Shown one piece after another: positions 2,923 to 26,104 of a stretch of DNA of 64,000 bases. Both the position numbers and the translations under genes were made by a program. Location: assembly GCF_002795825.1 (NCBI RefSeq), contig NZ_CP018800.1, positions 248,001-312,000 of the forward strand, read 5' to 3'. Within the stretch, counting starts at the first letter, position 1. Each line of letters starts with the position of its first letter. The stretch comes from Mariprofundus ferrinatatus. GTDB lineage: Bacteria; Pseudomonadota; Zetaproteobacteria; Mariprofundales; Mariprofundaceae. A model generated the notes under the pieces. It was not told where the DNA came from and ran no database searches. It saw only the letters and a program-made list of their open reading frames with translations.

Positions 2923-4410
2923 GTGATTGATAAGTGGTCTAAGAGATTCAGCATCGAAGATAAAGGACTGAAGCTTCAGTTCCGGATTTTTTCACTATTG
3001 CTGCTCCTTGGCCCCGTGATGGTCTTTTCTTATATCCTCACCGATCTGGCTACGCTGACCGACCTTCTTCAGGCCAAATATATTGTCCCTTACCTCCTGT
3101 CGCTGATTATCGTGCTGAGTGTTCTGGCGTTACTGCAAACCATGTTCTCCCACCTCTCCAGAATCTCTCTGGCGATGCAACAGGGTTCGGAGCAACAGCT
3201 GATTGAATTGACCCGTGTTCAGGGTGCCAACGAGTTACGGGGTATTGTGGATAGTTTCGGGGTGCTCCTGAAACAGTATCAGGAGGCGAGCGGCGCACTT
3301 GAGCGCCGGGCCGTTGAGTTGCTGCTGATCAAGGAGCTGGCAGAAGAGGCGAGTGCAAACCTTGACCTGAAAACGCTGCTCAACTCCTTGCTCGATAAGG
3401 TGATGCAGATAAACAGGGCAAAAATTGGTTCGGTATTTCTCGTTGATGAGAGTGGAGAGAGATTGAAGGTGGTAAGCTCCAGGGGTGTTGGTCGAGAGGA
3501 AATTGATGGAATCTCGATAGCAGTGAAGGACTCCCTCGCATCACTTGTTCTGGACGGTCGGGAAGGGGAACTTCTGGTCGAGAATATCGAAACAGATAGC
3601 CGTGTCAGGAAAAAGAATGATCCGAAATACGGCTCGCCCTCATTTCTGCTGCTACCGGTTCGTGCCGGCGAGAAAATCATCGCAGTCATCAATCTGGCGC
3701 ATAAGAGTAATGGCGAAATGTTCAGGCAGGAGGATGTCGATCTTGCCACTATTATGATTCAGGAGGTCGGGTTTGCACTTGAGAATGCCCGTATCCACAC
3801 CGAAATCAAAGATCATGCCAGACGCCTTGAGCAGCAAACCGCTGCCCTGCAGGAGGAGATCCACCGCCGCATGATTGCAGAAAAAGAGCTTGAGAAACTT
3901 GCTCACAAAGACACGCTAACCGGCCTTGCCAACCGTCATATGTTTATCGACCGGATTGAAGTGGCTGTTGCAATGGCACATCGACATCAGGCCAAGCTGG
4001 CTGTGATGTTTGTGGATCTGGACATGTTCAAGGCCATCAATGACACACTGGGCCATGCCGCTGGTGACGAAGTATTGTGCGAAGTTTCCAGGCGCATGCA
4101 GGCATGCTTGCGGGAAACGGATCTGATTGCCCGTTATGGCGGTGATGAATTTACCGTGATTCTCACGGAAGTGAGCGATAGCGAGGGCATCAACAATGTT
4201 GCCAGCAAGATTATTCATACACTGCAACAACCGATCGAAGTCAAAGGGGAGACGCGTTCTGTCGGCTGCAGTATCGGCATTGCCATCTATCCGGATGACG
4301 CCGAGGATTATGAAAGCCTGATTAGGCATGCGGACAAGGCGATGTACATTTCCAAGCGGGTTGCGGGAAGCAGCTTCCATTATTACGCGACAGTCGCCAG
4401 TCGCATCTGA
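2923..4410 (+). CDS. Membrane GAF-GGDEF diguanylate cyclase
   Basis: Predicted inner-membrane enzyme that makes cyclic di-GMP. Two hydrophobic helices near the N terminus (IFSLLLLLGPVMVFSYIL and IVPYLLSLIIVLSVLALL) are followed by a linker, a GAF sensor domain (roughly residues 130-290), a short coiled coil and a GGDEF domain. The active-site motif is intact (RYGGDEF, around residue 405). An RETD lies five residues before it, matching the RXXD inhibitory site that binds product. No EAL or HD-GYP domain follows. Start chosen as GTG at 2923 because AAGGGTAAG sits just upstream; TTG at 2893 is in frame. The GAF ligand is unknown. Confidence 0.92.
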   Translation: MIDKWSKRFSIEDKGLKLQFRIFSLLLLLGPVMVFSYILTDLATLTDLLQAKYIVPYLLSLIIVLSVLALLQTMFSHLSRISLAMQQGSEQQLIELTRVQGANELRGIVDSFGVLLKQYQEASGALERRAVELLLIKELAEEASANLDLKTLLNSLLDKVMQINRAKIGSVFLVDESGERLKVVSSRGVGREEIDGISIAVKDSLASLVLDGREGELLVENIETDSRVRKKNDPKYGSPSFLLLPVRAGEKIIAVINLAHKSNGEMFRQEDVDLATIMIQEVGFALENARIHTEIKDHARRLEQQTAALQEEIHRRMIAEKELEKLAHKDTLTGLANRHMFIDRIEVAVAMAHRHQAKLAVMFVDLDMFKAINDTLGHAAGDEVLCEVSRRMQACLRETDLIARYGGDEFTVILTEVSDSEGINNVASKIIHTLQQPIEVKGETRSVGCSIGIAIYPDDAEDYESLIRHADKAMYISKRVAGSSFHYYATVASRI

Positions 4411-17398: not shown

Positions 17399-18173
17399 GA
17401 TGATGTCCGGGGGCACAGCCGATGCATGAGGCATCGTGGGCGACGATCTGGATATGATCCCCATACATGTCGCGCCAGACGCTCTCAGGGATATTTTCCC
17501 CGTGCATGGCATGGTGATGGATCTGCCTGTTCAGGCAGGCGACCGAATCGACATGGCTGCTGATTGCTGCGATATCATGTTCTACCATGATCGTGCTCAT
17601 GCCGGTGTCATCACATAGCTTACGTAGCAACTGGAACAGTTTCTCCTGTCGCACGGTATCCAGCGCTGCTGATGGCTCATCGAGCAGAAGGAGTTTCGGC
17701 TTGCGAACCAGGGCGCGGGCGAGGCGCACGCGCTGGCGCTGGCCACCGGACAGCTGGCGAAAATCGGAGCCGGACAGCTGCTCCATGTCGACCAGAGAGA
17801 GCGCCTCGCTGATGGCAGAGGCTGAGATGCCTCCCTGCCACGGTTTGGCATACCCGGGCAGCCCCATGGCAACAACATCACGAACGCGCATGGGAAGTCG
17901 CGGCTGGTGGTCATGTAGCTGATGCAGGAACCCAACCTGCTGCAGAAGGCGGCGTCGGTTTGATCGGTTCAGGCGCTCGTCCAGCAGCTCTACCTCGCCT
18001 TCATCGGCCTGAATCAGGCCGGCAACAAGGTTGATCAGGGTGCTTTTTCCCGCACCGTTGGGGCCGACAATACCCAGGAAGTGGCCAGCTTCGAGCGTCA
18101 GGTTGATGTTCTCCAGAAACGGTTTGCTGACGGGGCCGAAACGGATATTGGTGAGGCGCAGTACAGCAGTCAT
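17391..18173 (-). CDS. znuC: Zinc/manganese-type ABC transporter ATPase
   Basis: A 260-residue ATPase that powers metal import. Walker A is GPNGAGKST, the ABC signature is LSGGQRQRVRLARAL, Walker B is LLLLDEPSAALD and the switch histidine is in VEHDIA. The C terminus carries many His and Cys (HHAMHGEN, CIGCAPGHHHD), which could bind metal. It overlaps znuA by four bases (ATGA) and znuB by eight, so the operon is translationally coupled. Confidence 0.92.
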   Translation of the reverse strand: MTAVLRLTNIRFGPVSKPFLENINLTLEAGHFLGIVGPNGAGKSTLINLVAGLIQADEGEVELLDERLNRSNRRRLLQQVGFLHQLHDHQPRLPMRVRDVVAMGLPGYAKPWQGGISASAISEALSLVDMEQLSGSDFRQLSGGQRQRVRLARALVRKPKLLLLDEPSAALDTVRQEKLFQLLRKLCDDTGMSTIMVEHDIAAISSHVDSVACLNRQIHHHAMHGENIPESVWRDMYGDHIQIVAHDASCIGCAPGHHHD

Positions 18174-18988
18174 GGTTGCAGTGCACCGTTAAGGCTGTTC
18201 AGGTTTGCTTCCATGAACTGATCCCATGATGAGCCGCAGTCACCCAGTGCGTTCAGGGTCGCCATGCGGGTGTTGTTGCCGGATTTTGCAGCAAGCCAAT
18301 CCAGGGCGCGATTGATATGGGCTGCATCCTGAAGCAGCAGCGCATCGGGGTGGTCGGCCAGTGTCTGCAGCGCTTCATCGAGCGCATGCGGGCCGTGTTC
18401 ATGACCGTGATGGCCGCTCTCCAGTACCGCCAGTACAGGCACATTGAGCTCATCCATCAGTCGCTTCCACGCCGGATGTTGCATGACTACGCCGGAGTTG
18501 TGCAGGGGTGCCAGCGCTTTTCGCCATGCCTGTTCCAGTGTCTCTGTTGCGCGGATGGCTGCCGCAAGGCGGCCCTCGATGGATCTGCTGTTGGTCGGAT
18601 TCAGCGCGATCAGCGCTTTGGCGAGATGGGGCAGAGCTTCCCGGACAGCGGCAGGCGAAAGCCAGCCGTGGTCGCGAGCAGGCCAGAGATCGAGCGTGTT
18701 GTTGTGCAGGGGTGGTAGCGGCCAGCCGCCATCGTCATATGAGGCGCGTACAAGCAGATCGGCCTGCTGTAACAGCTCGATCTTGCGCGGTTGCAGCTGA
18801 AAGTGGTGCGGATCTGCAGCAGCAGGCAGCAGGCATGTTACCTCTACCGTTGCGTCCAGCATTTTCACGATGCCGGCCAGAGGCGGAAGGGTGACCGCAA
18901 TTGTGGTAGCCGCAGCCGAAAATGGCGCTGCCAATATCAGAAATAAAAGTACTGCCATTCGTCTGGACAGATGATTGCTTCTCCACAT
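18170..18988 (-). CDS. znuA: Periplasmic metal-binding protein of the ABC importer
   Basis: Cluster A-I substrate-binding protein, about 272 residues. A signal peptide (MAVLLFLILAAPFSAAA) starts the protein, then IAVTLPPLAGIV. Candidate metal ligands are in ADPHHFQLQP, in MQHPAW, and in a His-rich loop (GHHGHEHGPH). Zinc is the likely substrate; manganese is not excluded. ATG at 18988 is chosen because it gives a standard signal peptide. No clear Zur box was found in the 105-base gap to the divergent gene. Confidence 0.85.
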   Translation of the reverse strand: MWRSNHLSRRMAVLLFLILAAPFSAAATTIAVTLPPLAGIVKMLDATVEVTCLLPAAADPHHFQLQPRKIELLQQADLLVRASYDDGGWPLPPLHNNTLDLWPARDHGWLSPAAVREALPHLAKALIALNPTNSRSIEGRLAAAIRATETLEQAWRKALAPLHNSGVVMQHPAWKRLMDELNVPVLAVLESGHHGHEHGPHALDEALQTLADHPDALLLQDAAHINRALDWLAAKSGNNTRMATLNALGDCGSSWDQFMEANLNSLNGALQP

Positions 18989-19093
18989 GGGGGCGATGCT
19001 AACAGGTTGCCGGAAAAGTCCATCCCTGGATTTTCCTGCCGCCAAATGCAAACCCTTGATTAACCATGAAGATCAAGTGAAACTGCCAACCAT

Positions 19094-21316
19094 ATGATTT
19101 CTCCCGACTATTTTGACTCCCGCTGGAGTTGGTACCGCCCCGTTCTGAACCGACAGGAGCAACCGAGAAACCTGTGCACTGTAGAGGTGCGCAGGCTGCC
19201 GATCCGGTTCACCACTTCTAAGGGCGGCGAATATATTCCGTTTGCTGTTCAGGCAGATGTCGATAAGGCGTTAACGGTGTCCCTGCGCAGGCTGCAGGAT
19301 TATGCCATCCGTTACATGGTTAAGGGTGAAAAGGTCTCCGCACATACATTGCCGCAGATGAACGATCGGGTGCGGGCCATGGTGAGCTACCTGCGCAAAC
19401 AGAATCCGCACCTTTCGCGCGATATGCTGCACCACTGGTGTGCCGAATCGCAGGGGGCAGCAGCGCTGCTTAATATTTGTGAGGTGTTGTGGGAACAGGG
19501 GTGGAAGCAGGATCAGGCTGATTCGGCGCCATGGGTGCCTGCTGTCAATGTACTGCTGCTCAGGCTGATCAGAACGGCTATTGCCAAGCTCTCCGGCGAG
19601 GAGAGTGCAACCGTCAATCATGTCATGCTTTGTGTCGTTGGTGGCCTCTACAACTGGGCATTGCAGGGGTTTCTCAAGCGCTACCTTGAGGGTGTCGTAG
19701 AGATTGCCCGTATTCCCAATTGTGAGGCAATGGTGCTGCCGGTGACTCCGATGGTGTTTATGCATCATCAGCCTGATTCAACACTGCTGGCGGACGATAG
19801 CCGAATTATTCGCGCCTATGGCCTTGAGCCCGAGATCGTCCCGCAGATGCGTTATCTGATCGGCAAAGTGGGGAACAGCAATGAGGGGGGGATGCTTGCC
19901 CTGCTGGCCAAGGACAGGATGGGGGCGCATCTGTTGCGCCGTAGCTGGGCAAGGCTGTCGCTCTGGAAGCTGGCCTTGAAGACCGGATATGGGGGCTGGA
20001 TGCGCTGGGTGCTGGATGCCAAGCGGCTGGATCAGCTTCTGGCCGGGCAGGTAAGGCTGGACTCAATGGCGATGGAAAACCTGCATGCCAATAGTGATGA
20101 GGCTATAGCCGTTTGGCTGCAAGCACAGATGCAGGGGGGAAGGAGTGCAAAAGCTGCGGGAGAGCCGTGGCTGCAGGATAAAATCACACTGGTTGCTTTC
20201 AGGGTATTTGATGAGGATGTTCGGGTTGAGATTGCCCGCCGTGAAGCTGAATGCTGCTGGCTCGATCGCAAAAGTGAAATGGGTACCTCAGGCCGACTGC
20301 AAACCGGGCTTGTCGGCATCAGTGAGCTGCGTGGCCAGGGTGGCTTGCGCGGTGGTCGCGATTCCGAAAGTGAAAAGCGCCTTGAGCAGGCCTGGCTGGA
20401 CGGCGAACTGGTTCTGGTGCAGTCCGATGCCGGCAAGATGCTGCACAGCGGCAAGTCCATGGCGCTGCACCATGGCTGCATGCGGGTGGAGTGGTCAGAT
20501 TATCTGGCTCATATCTATACGCTGAGCGTTTCCGATGCCGCACAGTTTCTAAGTGACCGTTTTCTGCCGGCAATTTTCGAGGCCGTGGAATCCAGGGGGA
20601 ACCTTTTTCTCGATGCATGCTCCGGTTCGGGGTGCATGCTGCGCGGTTCAGTAGTCGAACTCACCGAGGCGGCACTCTTCCTGCGAGAGCGTTTTCGGCA
20701 GCTCTATCTGGAGGTGACCGGACAGCAGGATGGCAAGGCTGAGGTGTTGAACATTCCTCCAGTGTCAATGTGCATGGATTTGACCGGCGAGTGGATATTC
20801 GGTGAGCGTCAGCATGCTAAGATGGGCGAGCATCGCATCGCCTTTTCTCTGGCGGTGTCGCAGGTGGATGCCGGCATTTCCCGTGATACAGGTATAGCAC
20901 GAATGATCAATGCGGGCGTCAGGGAGATGGGTAAAAAATCGCTTGGTAGCGTTAACGTTGAGAAGTTTTATATCAGCAGCGACGAGGCGGTACAGGTTAT
21001 CCATAATGCAGGTATTGCACTTACCGCATCTGCACTCAAAGAGTTGACGAAAATGCTGGCTGGAAGTGCGCATATCCATGAATATCGCCGTTCCGTCATG
21101 CAGGTCAGAGGCGTGCTTGACGACTACCGGCTTCCTCCGGCAGGGCTTGAAATGGTTGTTATTCGCCGTCATGGCGAAGAAGGCAAATGCCCCTGGTTGC
21201 TGGTGAAGGTCGGTAAGCCGAATCTTGCCGGCGTCGATGTCGAGGTATACGAGCTTCTCGATGAATATTCTGATGCCGCGCAAAATATCGTCGCGCTTGG
21301 CCTGAAGAGCTGGTGA
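19094..21316 (+). CDS. Unrecognised 740-residue protein with a possible degenerate cyclase-like domain
   Basis: A large soluble protein with no family I recognise. No signal peptide or convincing membrane segment is visible. The central part (about 270-345) is Trp- and Leu-rich and helical (RRSWARLSLWKLALKTGYGGW). Residues about 465-655 recall class III nucleotide cyclases: a helix FLSDRFLPAIFEAVESRG, then NLFLDACSGSGCML where cyclases have a G-D-G turn, a helix LTEAALFLRERFRQLY, and VSMCMDLTGEWIFGE. The catalytic aspartates are not evident, so it would be inactive if the resemblance holds. It ends with a GTGA overlap with tilS, suggesting co-expression. Composition resembles its neighbours, so recent transfer is not indicated. 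Confidence 0.75.
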   Translation: MISPDYFDSRWSWYRPVLNRQEQPRNLCTVEVRRLPIRFTTSKGGEYIPFAVQADVDKALTVSLRRLQDYAIRYMVKGEKVSAHTLPQMNDRVRAMVSYLRKQNPHLSRDMLHHWCAESQGAAALLNICEVLWEQGWKQDQADSAPWVPAVNVLLLRLIRTAIAKLSGEESATVNHVMLCVVGGLYNWALQGFLKRYLEGVVEIARIPNCEAMVLPVTPMVFMHHQPDSTLLADDSRIIRAYGLEPEIVPQMRYLIGKVGNSNEGGMLALLAKDRMGAHLLRRSWARLSLWKLALKTGYGGWMRWVLDAKRLDQLLAGQVRLDSMAMENLHANSDEAIAVWLQAQMQGGRSAKAAGEPWLQDKITLVAFRVFDEDVRVEIARREAECCWLDRKSEMGTSGRLQTGLVGISELRGQGGLRGGRDSESEKRLEQAWLDGELVLVQSDAGKMLHSGKSMALHHGCMRVEWSDYLAHIYTLSVSDAAQFLSDRFLPAIFEAVESRGNLFLDACSGSGCMLRGSVVELTEAALFLRERFRQLYLEVTGQQDGKAEVLNIPPVSMCMDLTGEWIFGERQHAKMGEHRIAFSLAVSQVDAGISRDTGIARMINAGVREMGKKSLGSVNVEKFYISSDEAVQVIHNAGIALTASALKELTKMLAGSAHIHEYRRSVMQVRGVLDDYRLPPAGLEMVVIRRHGEEGKCPWLLVKVGKPNLAGVDVEVYELLDEYSDAAQNIVALGLKSW

Positions 21317-22320
21317 AGGTGAAGTTCGGGAGCGCTGCCCGCTTTGCCGGTTGGCTAAATCATGCGGCGGTTCCGGAACTGCCGCATGAGATTGCAGTCG
21401 GCTGGTCAGGAGGGGCCGACTCGACAGCGTTGCTGCTGGCTCTGAAAGAGGCCGGGCATGCCGTTTCTGCCTGGCATGTGGATCACGGCTGGCGGGAATC
21501 TTCCCGGCAGGAGTGTGAAATGCTTGCAGAGAGAGCAAACAGCTGGGGTATTGCGTTTTATAGTTCCCGCCTGGATGCCGCTGATGAATCGAACCGCGAG
21601 GCAGTGGCCCGACGTGGCAGATTTGACCGTTTCCTCTCATGGAGCAGGGAGCTCGGCATCTCGACACTCTGTCTTGCGCATCAGCTTGATGATCAGGCAG
21701 AAACGGTCTGTATGCGCCTGTTGCAGGGGGCGGGGGCGGGTGGCTGTCGCGGCATGCGGCGGGAGCGGAACTATTACGGACTGAGAGTTGTAAGGCCTCT
21801 GCTGCATGTTCCGGGTATCGAGTTGCGCACTGTTTTAAGAGAGGCGGGCGTGGAGTGGTTTGAGGATCCAAGCAACGAAGACCTGTCAATCTGGAGGAAT
21901 CGTATCCGGCAGCGGCTGTTCCCTCAGATCGCGGAGAGCGGCATTAAGCCGGATCAGCTGTTTATGCGCTGGCAGCGGCAGGCGGAAAGGCTGGCCATAC
22001 AGCTTGATAAGGGTGCCGACGCAGTGCTGAATGGTGGCAGCTCCGGCATGGACGTTAGAAGAGGTAGAGAGGTTATTCTGCCATGGCGGCAGTGGAGCGA
22101 CTGCCTGCCGGCGGTTCGTGCCAGAGTGCTGCAGCGAATGATGTCGTCACTGCTTGGTGAGGGTGTCACGCCCGGGCGCAGGCACATTGTCATGGTGGAG
22201 CAGTGGACGTTGCGCGACGGGCGCGGAGGGCTCGATCTCTCCGGTTGCAGGCTGCAACGAAGGCAGGGGGGGTTGCATCTGCTGCCGGCAACGTCAGTTT
22301 GTGCCGGCAACTTGAGGTGA
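21313..22320 (+). CDS. tilS: tRNA(Ile)-lysidine synthase
   Basis: Modifies the wobble cytidine of tRNA-Ile(CAU) to lysidine so that it reads AUA. 335 residues, with the PP-loop SGGADSTALLLAL at about residue 31, HVDHGWR, the AHQLDDQAETVCMRLLQGAG segment and EDPSNED followed by NRIRQRLFP. The start is GTG at 21313, overlapping the stop of the preceding gene by four bases. In many genomes tilS precedes ftsH, as here. The C-terminal domain is short compared with E. coli TilS. Confidence 0.94.
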   Translation: MKVKFGSAARFAGWLNHAAVPELPHEIAVGWSGGADSTALLLALKEAGHAVSAWHVDHGWRESSRQECEMLAERANSWGIAFYSSRLDAADESNREAVARRGRFDRFLSWSRELGISTLCLAHQLDDQAETVCMRLLQGAGAGGCRGMRRERNYYGLRVVRPLLHVPGIELRTVLREAGVEWFEDPSNEDLSIWRNRIRQRLFPQIAESGIKPDQLFMRWQRQAERLAIQLDKGADAVLNGGSSGMDVRRGREVILPWRQWSDCLPAVRARVLQRMMSSLLGEGVTPGRRHIVMVEQWTLRDGRGGLDLSGCRLQRRQGGLHLLPATSVCAGNLR

Positions 22321-22492: not shown

Positions 22493-24427
22493 ATGAGTAA
22501 GAATCTAATACTGTGGCTGGTAATCGGTGTCACGATGATGAGCCTGTTTAATATGTTCTCGGCACCTATGTCGCGGGCAGACAAGATGGCCTACTCCACC
22601 TTTATTGAGAAGGTGGATGGCGGCATGGTGGAGTCGGCAACAATCAAGGAAAACCAGGTGATCGGCCAGTACCGCGACACCTCTGGCGAAATAAAAAACT
22701 ATGACGTTAACATTCCTGCCAATGATGCCTCGCTTTCCCAGCGCCTGATTGATCAGCATGTCGTTGTAAATGTAAAAGAGAAGGATGAGGTGCCATTCAT
22801 TCTGTCGGTGCTGATCTCTTGGTTCCCTATGCTTCTGCTGATTGCTGTCTGGGTATTCTTCATGCGCCAGATGCAGGGCGGTGGCAAAGGCGGAGCGATG
22901 GGCTTCGGTAAGAGCAAGGCCAAGCTGCTCAACGAGCACACTGCGCGCGTCACTTTTGAAGATGTCGCAGGTTGTGATGAGGCAAAGCAGGAGGTGACCG
23001 AGGTAATCGAGTTCCTGCGTGATCCCTCGAAGTTCACCCGCCTGGGCGGCAAGATTCCCAAAGGCATGCTTCTGGTAGGCCCTCCTGGCACCGGCAAGAC
23101 ACTGCTGGCGCGAGCCATTGCAGGTGAAGCGGAAGTGCCCTTTTTCTCGATCTCCGGTTCCGACTTCGTGGAGATGTTTGTCGGTGTCGGCGCATCCCGT
23201 GTACGTGATATGTTCGAGCAGGCGAAGAAGCATGCGCCCTGCATCATCTTTGTGGATGAGATCGATGCCATGGGTCGCCATCGCGGAGCCGGCATCGGCG
23301 GCGGCAATGACGAGCGTGAGCAGACACTGAACCAGATGCTGGTTGAGATGGATGGTTTCGAGTCTAATGAAGGGGTTATCCTGGTGGCCGCCACCAACCG
23401 CCCTGATGTTCTGGATCCGGCGCTGCTACGCCCTGGCCGTTTTGACCGTCAGGTTGTGGTGCCGCGTCCGGATCTGCTCGGCCGCGATCAGATTCTCAAG
23501 GTGCATATGCGCAAGGTGCCATTGGCATCCGATGTGGATACCAAGGAGCTGGCACGTGGAACGCCTGGCTTCTCGGGAGCTGACCTGGCCAACCTGGTCA
23601 ATGAGGCGGCACTCAATGCTGCCCGTTATGATCGAGACAAGGTGACCCGTGCCGATTTCGAAACAGCCAAAGACAAGGTGATGATGGGTACCGAGCGCCG
23701 CTCTATGCTGATCTCCGATGATCAGAAAGAGACTACAGCCTACCATGAGGCGGGCCATACGCTGGTCGCCAAGTACCTGAAGAATGCCGATCCGGTACAC
23801 AAGGTGAGCATTATTCCGCGTGGTCAGGCACTCGGCATTACCATGCAGATGCCGGAAGAGGATCGCTTTAATCACGACAAGGAGTACCTGCGTGATCAGA
23901 TCTCCATCATGATGGGCGGTCGCCTTGGCGAAGAGCTGGTGCTTGGGCAGATGACCACCGGCGCATCCAACGATTTCGAGCGTGCAACGCAGCTGGCCCG
24001 TAATATGGTGACCCAGTGGGGCATGTCCGATGAGATGGGGCCGATGGTTTACGGAGAGCGTGAGCATGAGCCGTTCCTTGGTCGTGAAATCACCCGTCAG
24101 ACCAATATCTCGGAAGAGACGGCGCGCAAGATCGATATCGTCGTGCGCCAGCTGATCGAGGAAAATTATGATCGTGCCAAGAAGATTCTGGAGGATCACA
24201 TGGATCAGCTGCATCTTCTGGCCAAGGCGCTGATCAAGTATGAGACACTGGATACCACTGATATCGACCGTGTGATGGAGGGCAAGGAGCCTGTTCTGGT
24301 GAGCGGTTCGGAGAAGCCGGCAGGCAAGGGCAAAACGCCGCCGGAAGAGCCGACTGCCAAGGTGGATATCGGTGAATCCGGTAAAGAGAACAAGCCGTCC
24401 GATGGCGAGGCGGGACAGGCGAGCTGA
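22493..24427 (+). CDS. ftsH: ATP-dependent zinc metalloprotease FtsH
   Basis: Membrane-anchored AAA+ protease for quality control of membrane and regulatory proteins. 644 residues: two transmembrane helices (near residues 5-20 and 100-125) around a short periplasmic domain, an AAA domain with Walker A GPPGTGKT at about residue 195, IIFVDEIDA, the second region of homology with [22 protein letters not shown], and the zinc site HEAGH at about residue 416. The tail is Lys/Glu/Gly-rich. AAGGATAGG precedes the start. folP overlaps its stop codon (TGATG), as in E. coli ftsH-folP-glmM. Confidence 0.97.
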
Positions 24428-25251
24428 TGAAGTCGCGCTGGCATCGTCCGGCCAATGGTGATGCGTGGATAATGGGGGTGCTTAATTGCACCCCCGATTC
24501 GTTTTCGGACGGCGGCAGTTATATCGATGTCGACAGGGCTGTGGCACATGGATTGGCCATGCACGGCTCCGGAGCGGCCATCATCGATGTCGGCGGTGAA
24601 TCAACCAGGCCGGGATCAGAACCCATTTCGGTTGATGAGGAGCTAAAGCGCGTGATTCCCGTGATTCACGGGCTTGTGGCAGCAGGATACAAGGTTTCCG
24701 TGGATAGCATGAAAGCGGAGGTGATGCGGCAGGCAGTTGATGCCGGCGCAACGCTGGTCAATGATGTCTCAGCATTGACCCATGACCCTGAAAGTCTTGG
24801 TGTAGTCGCGGATACTGGTGTCGATGTCTGTCTGATGCATATGCAGGGCATGCCTTCAACGATGCAACATAAGCCTGAATATGGCGCTGTCGTGGATGAG
24901 GTTTGCGATTATCTTGAGCAGCGGATGAATGCCTGCCTGCGAGCCGGCATCAGGCAATCATCAATTTTGATTGATCCCGGTATCGGTTTCGGCAAGCGAC
25001 TTGAAGATAACCTTGCCCTGATCAGGGCGACAGGTCTCTTTAAACAGCGTTTTGGTGTGCCACTGCTGCTTGGCCTGTCGCGCAAATCCTTTATCGGTCA
25101 GCTGACGGGGGCTCCTGTCGAGGACCGGGAAATTGAGACGGCGGTTGCAGGTGCTATTGGTATCTCGCTGGGCGCTGATATACTGCGAGTACATGACGTT
25201 GCGCTGCAGTCCAGGGCAATTCGGGTCGCATCAGCACTCTCTGCAAGGTGA
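24427..25251 (+). CDS. folP: Dihydropteroate synthase
   Basis: Joins p-aminobenzoate to the pterin pyrophosphate in folate synthesis; the target of sulfonamides. 274 residues in a TIM barrel. Signature motifs are GVLNCTPDSFSDGG, DVGGESTRPGSEP, SVDSMKAEV, LVNDVSAL, ILIDPGIGFGK and LLLGLSRKSFIG. The ATG overlaps the ftsH stop codon. It is followed by cdaA after 64 bases. Confidence 0.96.
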   Translation: MKSRWHRPANGDAWIMGVLNCTPDSFSDGGSYIDVDRAVAHGLAMHGSGAAIIDVGGESTRPGSEPISVDEELKRVIPVIHGLVAAGYKVSVDSMKAEVMRQAVDAGATLVNDVSALTHDPESLGVVADTGVDVCLMHMQGMPSTMQHKPEYGAVVDEVCDYLEQRMNACLRAGIRQSSILIDPGIGFGKRLEDNLALIRATGLFKQRFGVPLLLGLSRKSFIGQLTGAPVEDREIETAVAGAIGISLGADILRVHDVALQSRAIRVASALSAR

Positions 25252-25315
25252 TTGCTTGTAAGTCGTGTCGGTGCAACTATTGTGGGTATGATGGGAGTGA
25301 CGGGTAATCGAACTT

Positions 25316-26104
25316 ATGGCTAACTGGCAATTCGGACTCGTAGATGTGCTGGATATTTCAGTGGTTGCCATCGTTGTCTATTTCTTTCTGAGCCTGATTC
25401 GAGGCACGCGCGCCGTTCAGATGCTGATCGGTGTTGCGGTTGTGGTTGTCACCTACCAGCTGGCCCGCACTTTCGGGCTGTTTACGGTCGAATGGATGTT
25501 CGGCCACTTTTTCTCCGCTTTTATGGTGATTCTTGTGGTTCTCTTCCAGCAGGAGATACGTCGTGCCCTGATGCGCGTGGCGGCAAACCCTCTCTCATTT
25601 ACGGGTTCTGCAACGGATGAATCGATTGATTCGCTGGTGGAATCTGCATTTTCGCTGGTTCATCGCGGCTGGGGAGGATTGATCGTGATTGAACGGGAGA
25701 CAGGGTTGCGCCACCTGTTTGAGTCGGGCGTGGAGATGGATGCGCCGCTCAGGCCGGACATCATTCAGGCACTCTTCTGTCCTGATGCCCCGATGCATGA
25801 TGGGGCGGTCATTATGCGCAGGGATGGTAACGGTGGCCGCATTGTTGCCGCTCGTGTGCTGCTTCCTCTTGCTCAGGCCAATGCTGTCCCCGGCGACTTT
25901 GGCACCCGTCACAGGGCTGCAGTCGGGCTTTCTGAAGAGACCGATGCATTGATTGTCGTGGTGTCCGAAGAGAGAGGAGAGGTGCACCTGGTTGAAGGGG
26001 GGCAGATGGGTGCGCCCATGACAAGCATGGAGCTTCGCGAAGCTCTGGGGCAGCTCGCGGTATCATCTGCAAAACCGGCCAAAGGTCCGGCAGGCAATTT
26101 CTGA
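25316..26104 (+). CDS. cdaA: Membrane diadenylate cyclase
   Basis: Makes cyclic di-AMP from two ATP. 262 residues: three N-terminal hydrophobic helices (VVAIVVYFFLSLI, MLIGVAVVVVTYQLA, FFSAFMVILVVLF) followed by a DAC domain with the two conserved motifs, DGAV (about residue 161) and GTRHRAAVGLSE (about residue 195). The intact DGA and RHR motifs predict activity. cdaR and glmM follow with overlapping codons, the arrangement described for Gram-positive c-di-AMP operons. No strong ribosome site is seen, so the start could be slightly different. Confidence 0.93.
   Translation: MANWQFGLVDVLDISVVAIVVYFFLSLIRGTRAVQMLIGVAVVVVTYQLARTFGLFTVEWMFGHFFSAFMVILVVLFQQEIRRALMRVAANPLSFTGSATDESIDSLVESAFSLVHRGWGGLIVIERETGLRHLFESGVEMDAPLRPDIIQALFCPDAPMHDGAVIMRRDGNGGRIVAARVLLPLAQANAVPGDFGTRHRAAVGLSEETDALIVVVSEERGEVHLVEGGQMGAPMTSMELREALGQLAVSSAKPAKGPAGNF

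Follow-up and report, generated by a model that had tools for sequence, protein, structure and literature searches.

The window analysed here is a stretch of 64,000 nucleotides of the Mariprofundus ferrinatatus genome (RefSeq assembly GCF_002795825.1, contig NZ_CP018800.1, positions 248,001 to 312,000), and its positions are numbered from its first letter. It carries an open reading frame (ORF) on the plus strand, with an ATG at 19094 and a stop codon ending at 21316, that lies between the divergent znuA gene and tilS and encodes a two-domain protein of 740 residues. Because full-length relatives with intact frames span the Zetaproteobacteria and show a low ratio of nonsynonymous to synonymous substitution rates (dN/dS), the ORF is a genuine gene and not a chance reading frame. 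A preliminary description of the locus had recognised no family in the product, and searches of Pfam, NCBIfam and PDB sequences indeed returned zero matches for the protein or its relatives. The same description correctly gave the length of the product, its GTGA coupling to tilS (the ORF stop overlaps the GTG of tilS at 21313 by 4 bases) and its position upstream of ftsH and cdaA, as ftsH, folP, cdaA, cdaR and glmM come after tilS.

Table 1. Features of the ORF and its neighbours, in window coordinates
Feature	Position	Strand	Evidence or remarks
740-residue ORF of a two-domain family specific to Zetaproteobacteria	19094..21316	+	64/78 class genomes; dN/dS well under 1
All-helical domain, residues 1–390	19094..20263	+	pLDDT 92 and pTM 0.91 folded alone; better conserved half; without significant PDB match
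Variable linker, residues 391–456	20264..20461	+	Partly disordered, pLDDT <50 at 398–422 and 454–458; length varies among relatives
Predicted class III nucleotide-cyclase fold, residues 457–729	20462..21280	+	Foldseek probability 1.00, best E 1.7e-3; VIA Z 14.6, rmsd 3.1 Å over 171 residues (P. aeruginosa CyaB)
Predicted strand beta1 GCMRVEWSDYL, residues 461–471	20474..20506	+	E466 takes the place of metal-binding aspartate 1; W467 and L471 invariant; from three cyclase alignment starts and column counts
Predicted beta2–beta3 hairpin LFLDACSGSGCMLRG, residues 504–518	20603..20647	+	Metal-binding aspartate 2 absent; G513, R517 and G518 invariant; D507 acidic in 36/36
tilS	21313..22320	+	4-base overlap (GTGA) with ORF stop
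znuA, divergent upstream neighbour	18170..19051	-	Together with znuC/znuB, conserved next to the ORF in almost every long locus reaching that far
ftsH-folP-cdaA, conserved downstream genes	22493..26104	+	
pLDDT, predicted local distance difference test; pTM, predicted template modelling score; rmsd, root-mean-square deviation.

Family distribution and predicted fold

Profile searches found the family in 64 of 78 Zetaproteobacteria genomes, including 31 of the 39 good-quality ones, essentially as a single copy, with second matches being short pieces in fragmented genomes. Among 398 sampled Pseudomonadota genomes, every match fell within the Zetaproteobacteria, and the close-relative scan, the sole search reaching beyond the phylum, likewise returned only members of that class, Mariprofundus and others. 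A plasmid search found no relative of the protein. The most divergent relatives, members of genus g5 (L049-L051), share about 27–30% identity with the M. ferrinatatus protein over the C-terminal domain. The gene is under strong purifying selection, with dN/dS between the closest pairs of about 0.02–0.15 for residues 1–390 and about 0.05–0.20 for residues 445–740. In most close pairs the N-terminal half has a several-fold lower dN/dS than the C-terminal half, with 36 invariant columns among 36 members of the family.

We modelled the whole chain with AlphaFold2 from a 29-sequence alignment and no templates. In the model (mean pLDDT 85, pTM 0.63), a helical region at residues 1–390 and a partly disordered linker precede an alpha/beta domain, which starts near residue 457 and has a core pLDDT mostly of 80–93. 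When this model was compared with the PDB by Foldseek, class III cyclases filled the leading rows, and VIA aligned the model over the range 457–729 with P. aeruginosa CyaB and, at 2.9 Å over 171 residues, with CyaC. VIA matched 193 chains at Z of at least 8, and each of its 50 best entries is a class III adenylate or guanylate cyclase; no GGDEF or Cas10 palm was present among the 50 best fold matches, nor was there a Pfam match to either. The predicted order of elements is beta1 (461–466), two helices, beta2 (504–510), beta3 (513–518), a helix, and beta4 onwards, which is the arrangement of a class III domain. In the predicted model, residues 457–729 thus have the class III catalytic-domain fold. 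The preliminary description had seen a cyclase-like layout at residues 465–655; at the level of fold this holds, and structure prediction led to class III cyclases and not to an unrelated fold, but the domain is longer, about 457–729.

The N-terminal domain, residues 1–390, was predicted to be all-helical when folded alone. It had no match above noise in the PDB (best Z 6.1, Foldseek probability at most 0.14), no Pfam match and no viral relative, and a BFVD search with the whole model gave nothing useful. The Munc13 MUN-domain module, which gave the Z of 6.1, was rejected as a relative since this is below a meaningful level for helical models. In these model-based searches, the null result for the helical domain serves as a negative control within the protein for the cyclase match. 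The helical domain is a candidate new fold, of which an absent match is no proof.

Residues at the cyclase-like cleft

The aligner gives ranges only, so the register of individual residues was inferred from secondary structure. Model residue 457 is aligned with residue 1008 of CyaC, 417 of sGC beta1 and 882 of AC2 C2, and with the residue numbering of these proteins all three alignments place metal position 1 at E466. This column holds Glu in 25, Asp in seven and another residue (Q, V, A or S) in four of the 36 members, and is hence acidic in 32. In Rv1625c, the metal aspartates are residues 256 and 300 and the substrate lysine is residue 296 (PMC4174876). When applied to the family, this spacing leads to residues 506–507 and 510–511, which adjoin the predicted hairpin turn at 511–512. 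Metal position 2, whether read at 510, 511 or 512 in the beta2–beta3 turn, is acidic in none of the 36 members. On this register, the family does not have the pair of metal acids represented by Asp256 and Asp300 in Rv1625c, and the alignment columns support a loss of the two-metal catalytic site from the C-terminal domain. The earlier remark that metal-binding aspartates are not evident was therefore right, with the nuance that most members do carry Glu or Asp at metal position 1.

Other positions are strongly conserved. D507, a candidate substrate-specifying residue, is acidic in all 36 members, E566 is acidic in 35, and a further candidate, Q590, is invariant; the R597 column holds Arg in 26 and His in nine of the 36; the register of the transition-state Asn and Arg in beta5/alpha4 is uncertain. 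The family has its own conserved set, W467, D507, G513, R517, G518, W567 and Q590, whose positions are equivalent to a cyclase cleft: W467 after beta1, D507 on beta2, G513-R517-G518 on beta3, GEW567 after beta4 and Q590 at the next helix. The invariant residues of the C-terminal half also include N638 and E720.

Over some 170 aligned residues, the domain resembles class III cyclases (PF00211; CyaB 3r5g, cyanobacterial CyaC 1wc3, sGC beta1 2wz1) in its predicted fold and in the succession of strands and helices, and most members share with them an acid at metal position 1. It differs from them in that sequence similarity is not detectable, metal position 2 is absent in all members, the transition-state Arg is not clearly conserved, and extra beta strands are predicted at about 620–638 and 685–707. 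Another parallel is the C2 domain of mammalian adenylyl cyclase and other partner domains lacking the metal aspartates, which share the cyclase fold with an incomplete metal site (1azs_B was matched at Z 14.1), although here a helical domain precedes the cyclase-fold domain, which has no paired counterpart in the same chain.

Interpretation as a putative pseudocyclase

Because the metal site and the family signature were both looked for and not found, the ORF product is classed as having a class III fold and is not filed as a class III cyclase. Given the loss of the metal site, the C-terminal domain is most likely a pseudocyclase, that is, a cyclase fold without the two-metal site, and a probable regulator of the helical domain; we hold this model-based reading with about even confidence. 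Such a domain would bind a nucleotide, as the preliminary description suggested, or pair with another cyclase-fold domain, and would thereby control the conserved helical N-terminal domain. As PF00211 has eight matches in this genome, which also encodes intact class III cyclases, a cyclase-fold partner is possible. We infer both the absence of cyclase activity and the regulatory role.

Several results weigh against the pseudocyclase reading. We used hhalign to compare the C-terminal profile with 26 genuine class III domains, taken from Zetaproteobacteria and from other members of the Pseudomonadota, and this comparison of hidden Markov models, suggested in the preliminary description, gave no signal in local, global or no-realign modes (probability 0.2%). 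PF00211 matched none of the 36 C-terminal domains at an E-value of 1, so they are not recognisable as class III by sequence family. When motif registers were scored, the one implied by the structure ranked 14th of 675 for beta1 and second of 665 for the tail, which is not convincing. The sequence strings quoted early on as cyclase-like do not rise above background in these analyses and so are not evidence by themselves; the fold carries the case. The fold in turn comes from one predicted whole-chain model, built on a shallow alignment of 29 sequences with the pTM given above, and the lower conservation of the C-terminal domain could mean that it is a mere scaffold. With a nil sequence-level signal and such a model, the match might be an analogy or a modelling artefact, in which a generic ferredoxin-like palm was finished in class III style by AlphaFold2. 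We consider this very improbable, since the core is predicted with high pLDDT, the leading structures are all class III cyclases and not GGDEF or other palms, with many chains at high Z, and the alignment extends to residue 729, past a bare palm.

A more serious alternative, which we regard as possible but doubtful, is that the cyclase-fold domain is purely a scaffold for dimerisation or protein interaction without nucleotide binding, and the helical domain bears the function. The better conservation of the N-terminal half, with its lower dN/dS and invariant columns, fits this view, as do the loss of metal position 2, the variability of the candidate transition-state Arg, and the fact that class III domains act as dimers (PMC4174876). 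Yet the invariant polar and aromatic residues W467, R517, W567, Q590, N638 and E720, in cleft-equivalent positions and elsewhere, seem beyond the needs of a scaffold. The frequent acid at E466, the acidic columns at D507 and E566 and the Arg or His at position 597 in 35 of the 36 members raise the question of an active enzyme with a rearranged site, i.e. a non-canonical cyclase or a catalyst of another nucleotide reaction such as an ATPase, an activity known for a degenerate GGDEF domain (PMC7288161). This we find unlikely: metal position 2 is never acidic, E466 is replaced by a non-acidic residue in four members, and intact class III cyclases are encoded in the same genome.

Nucleotide sensing is a well-known role of degenerate GGDEF domains, which provide a works-like analogy for the preferred pseudocyclase reading. 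In a documented precedent, a degenerate GGDEF domain binds GTP to activate the neighbouring domain (PMC7288161). GTP-binding examples such as Caulobacter CC3396 would share with our protein, putatively, a dead cyclase-type domain that regulates its neighbour, although they belong to another family: here GGDEF is not matched by sequence, and the 50 best fold matches include no GGDEF structure. If the C-terminal domain binds nucleotide, the class III fold would have been reused in the same way while hidden from sequence annotation; a limited literature search found no bacterial class III counterpart that has diverged past sequence recognition. The helical half is a candidate new fold, and the gene encoding it is retained at a single chromosomal position by most marine iron oxidisers. 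More speculatively, and with low confidence, the family may represent a class-wide Zetaproteobacteria signalling protein, in which a class III cyclase fold has become a ligand-sensing pseudocyclase that controls a helical effector with a fold unseen in solved structures.

Two other domains were noted in this genome. Outside the window, locus L112 (G000:C1:2102849-2103349, minus strand) encodes a second degenerate class III domain, detected by PF00211 with an E-value of 4e-7; its hairpin, ISGGHMVAVF, is without the second metal aspartate and its helix without the usual Asn. Within the window, a GGDEF domain (PF00990) lies at 3901–4359 on the plus strand in a 515-residue frame. With 23 GGDEF matches genome-wide, cyclic-nucleotide signalling genes are plentiful in M. 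ferrinatatus.

Genomic neighbourhood and gene loss

The ORF is preceded on the opposite strand by znuA, znuC and znuB. The order ORF-tilS-ftsH-folP-cdaA is retained in the 27 long loci as far as the contigs extend. Where a long locus continues far enough upstream, it nearly always carries the znu genes there; L054 has 5 kb of upstream sequence without a znu match. In 15 of 34 sequences, counting that of the window, the ORF stop and the tilS start overlap by 4 bases, with TTG as the start in one of them. A possible tilS start lies near the ORF stop in most of the remaining sequences, and none was detected in L057.

We also retrieved nine genomes that have tilS but not the ORF. In eight of the nine, three from the outgroup family f3, znuA and tilS are head-to-head direct neighbours. 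The ninth, G021, is of the same genus and has no znuA/znuB match near its tilS (locus L124, G021:C313). Beside tilS in this locus is another ABC-transporter ATPase gene (28% to ZnuC), with leuC-leuD close by. As eight genomes lack the gene and still have znuA directly beside tilS, the gene is dispensable and is not needed for the retention of tilS. In a rough tree of TilS, ZnuC and ZnuB, genera of the same family that lack the gene nest among those that bear it, with some supports being low, which suggests several losses of the gene within the family. These natural absences offer a comparison.

We do not claim a functional link to TilS, as tilS is retained in most genomes without the gene, nor a link to zinc through the znu operon, as no obvious Zur-type palindrome was seen in a by-eye check of the intergenic sequences. 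By eye, two strings, GGAAAAGTCCATC and CTTGATTA, recur upstream of the gene in several Mariprofundus relatives; GGAAACT then follows immediately before the ATG (about 18990–19094 in the window). The two strings look like a putative conserved promoter or leader.
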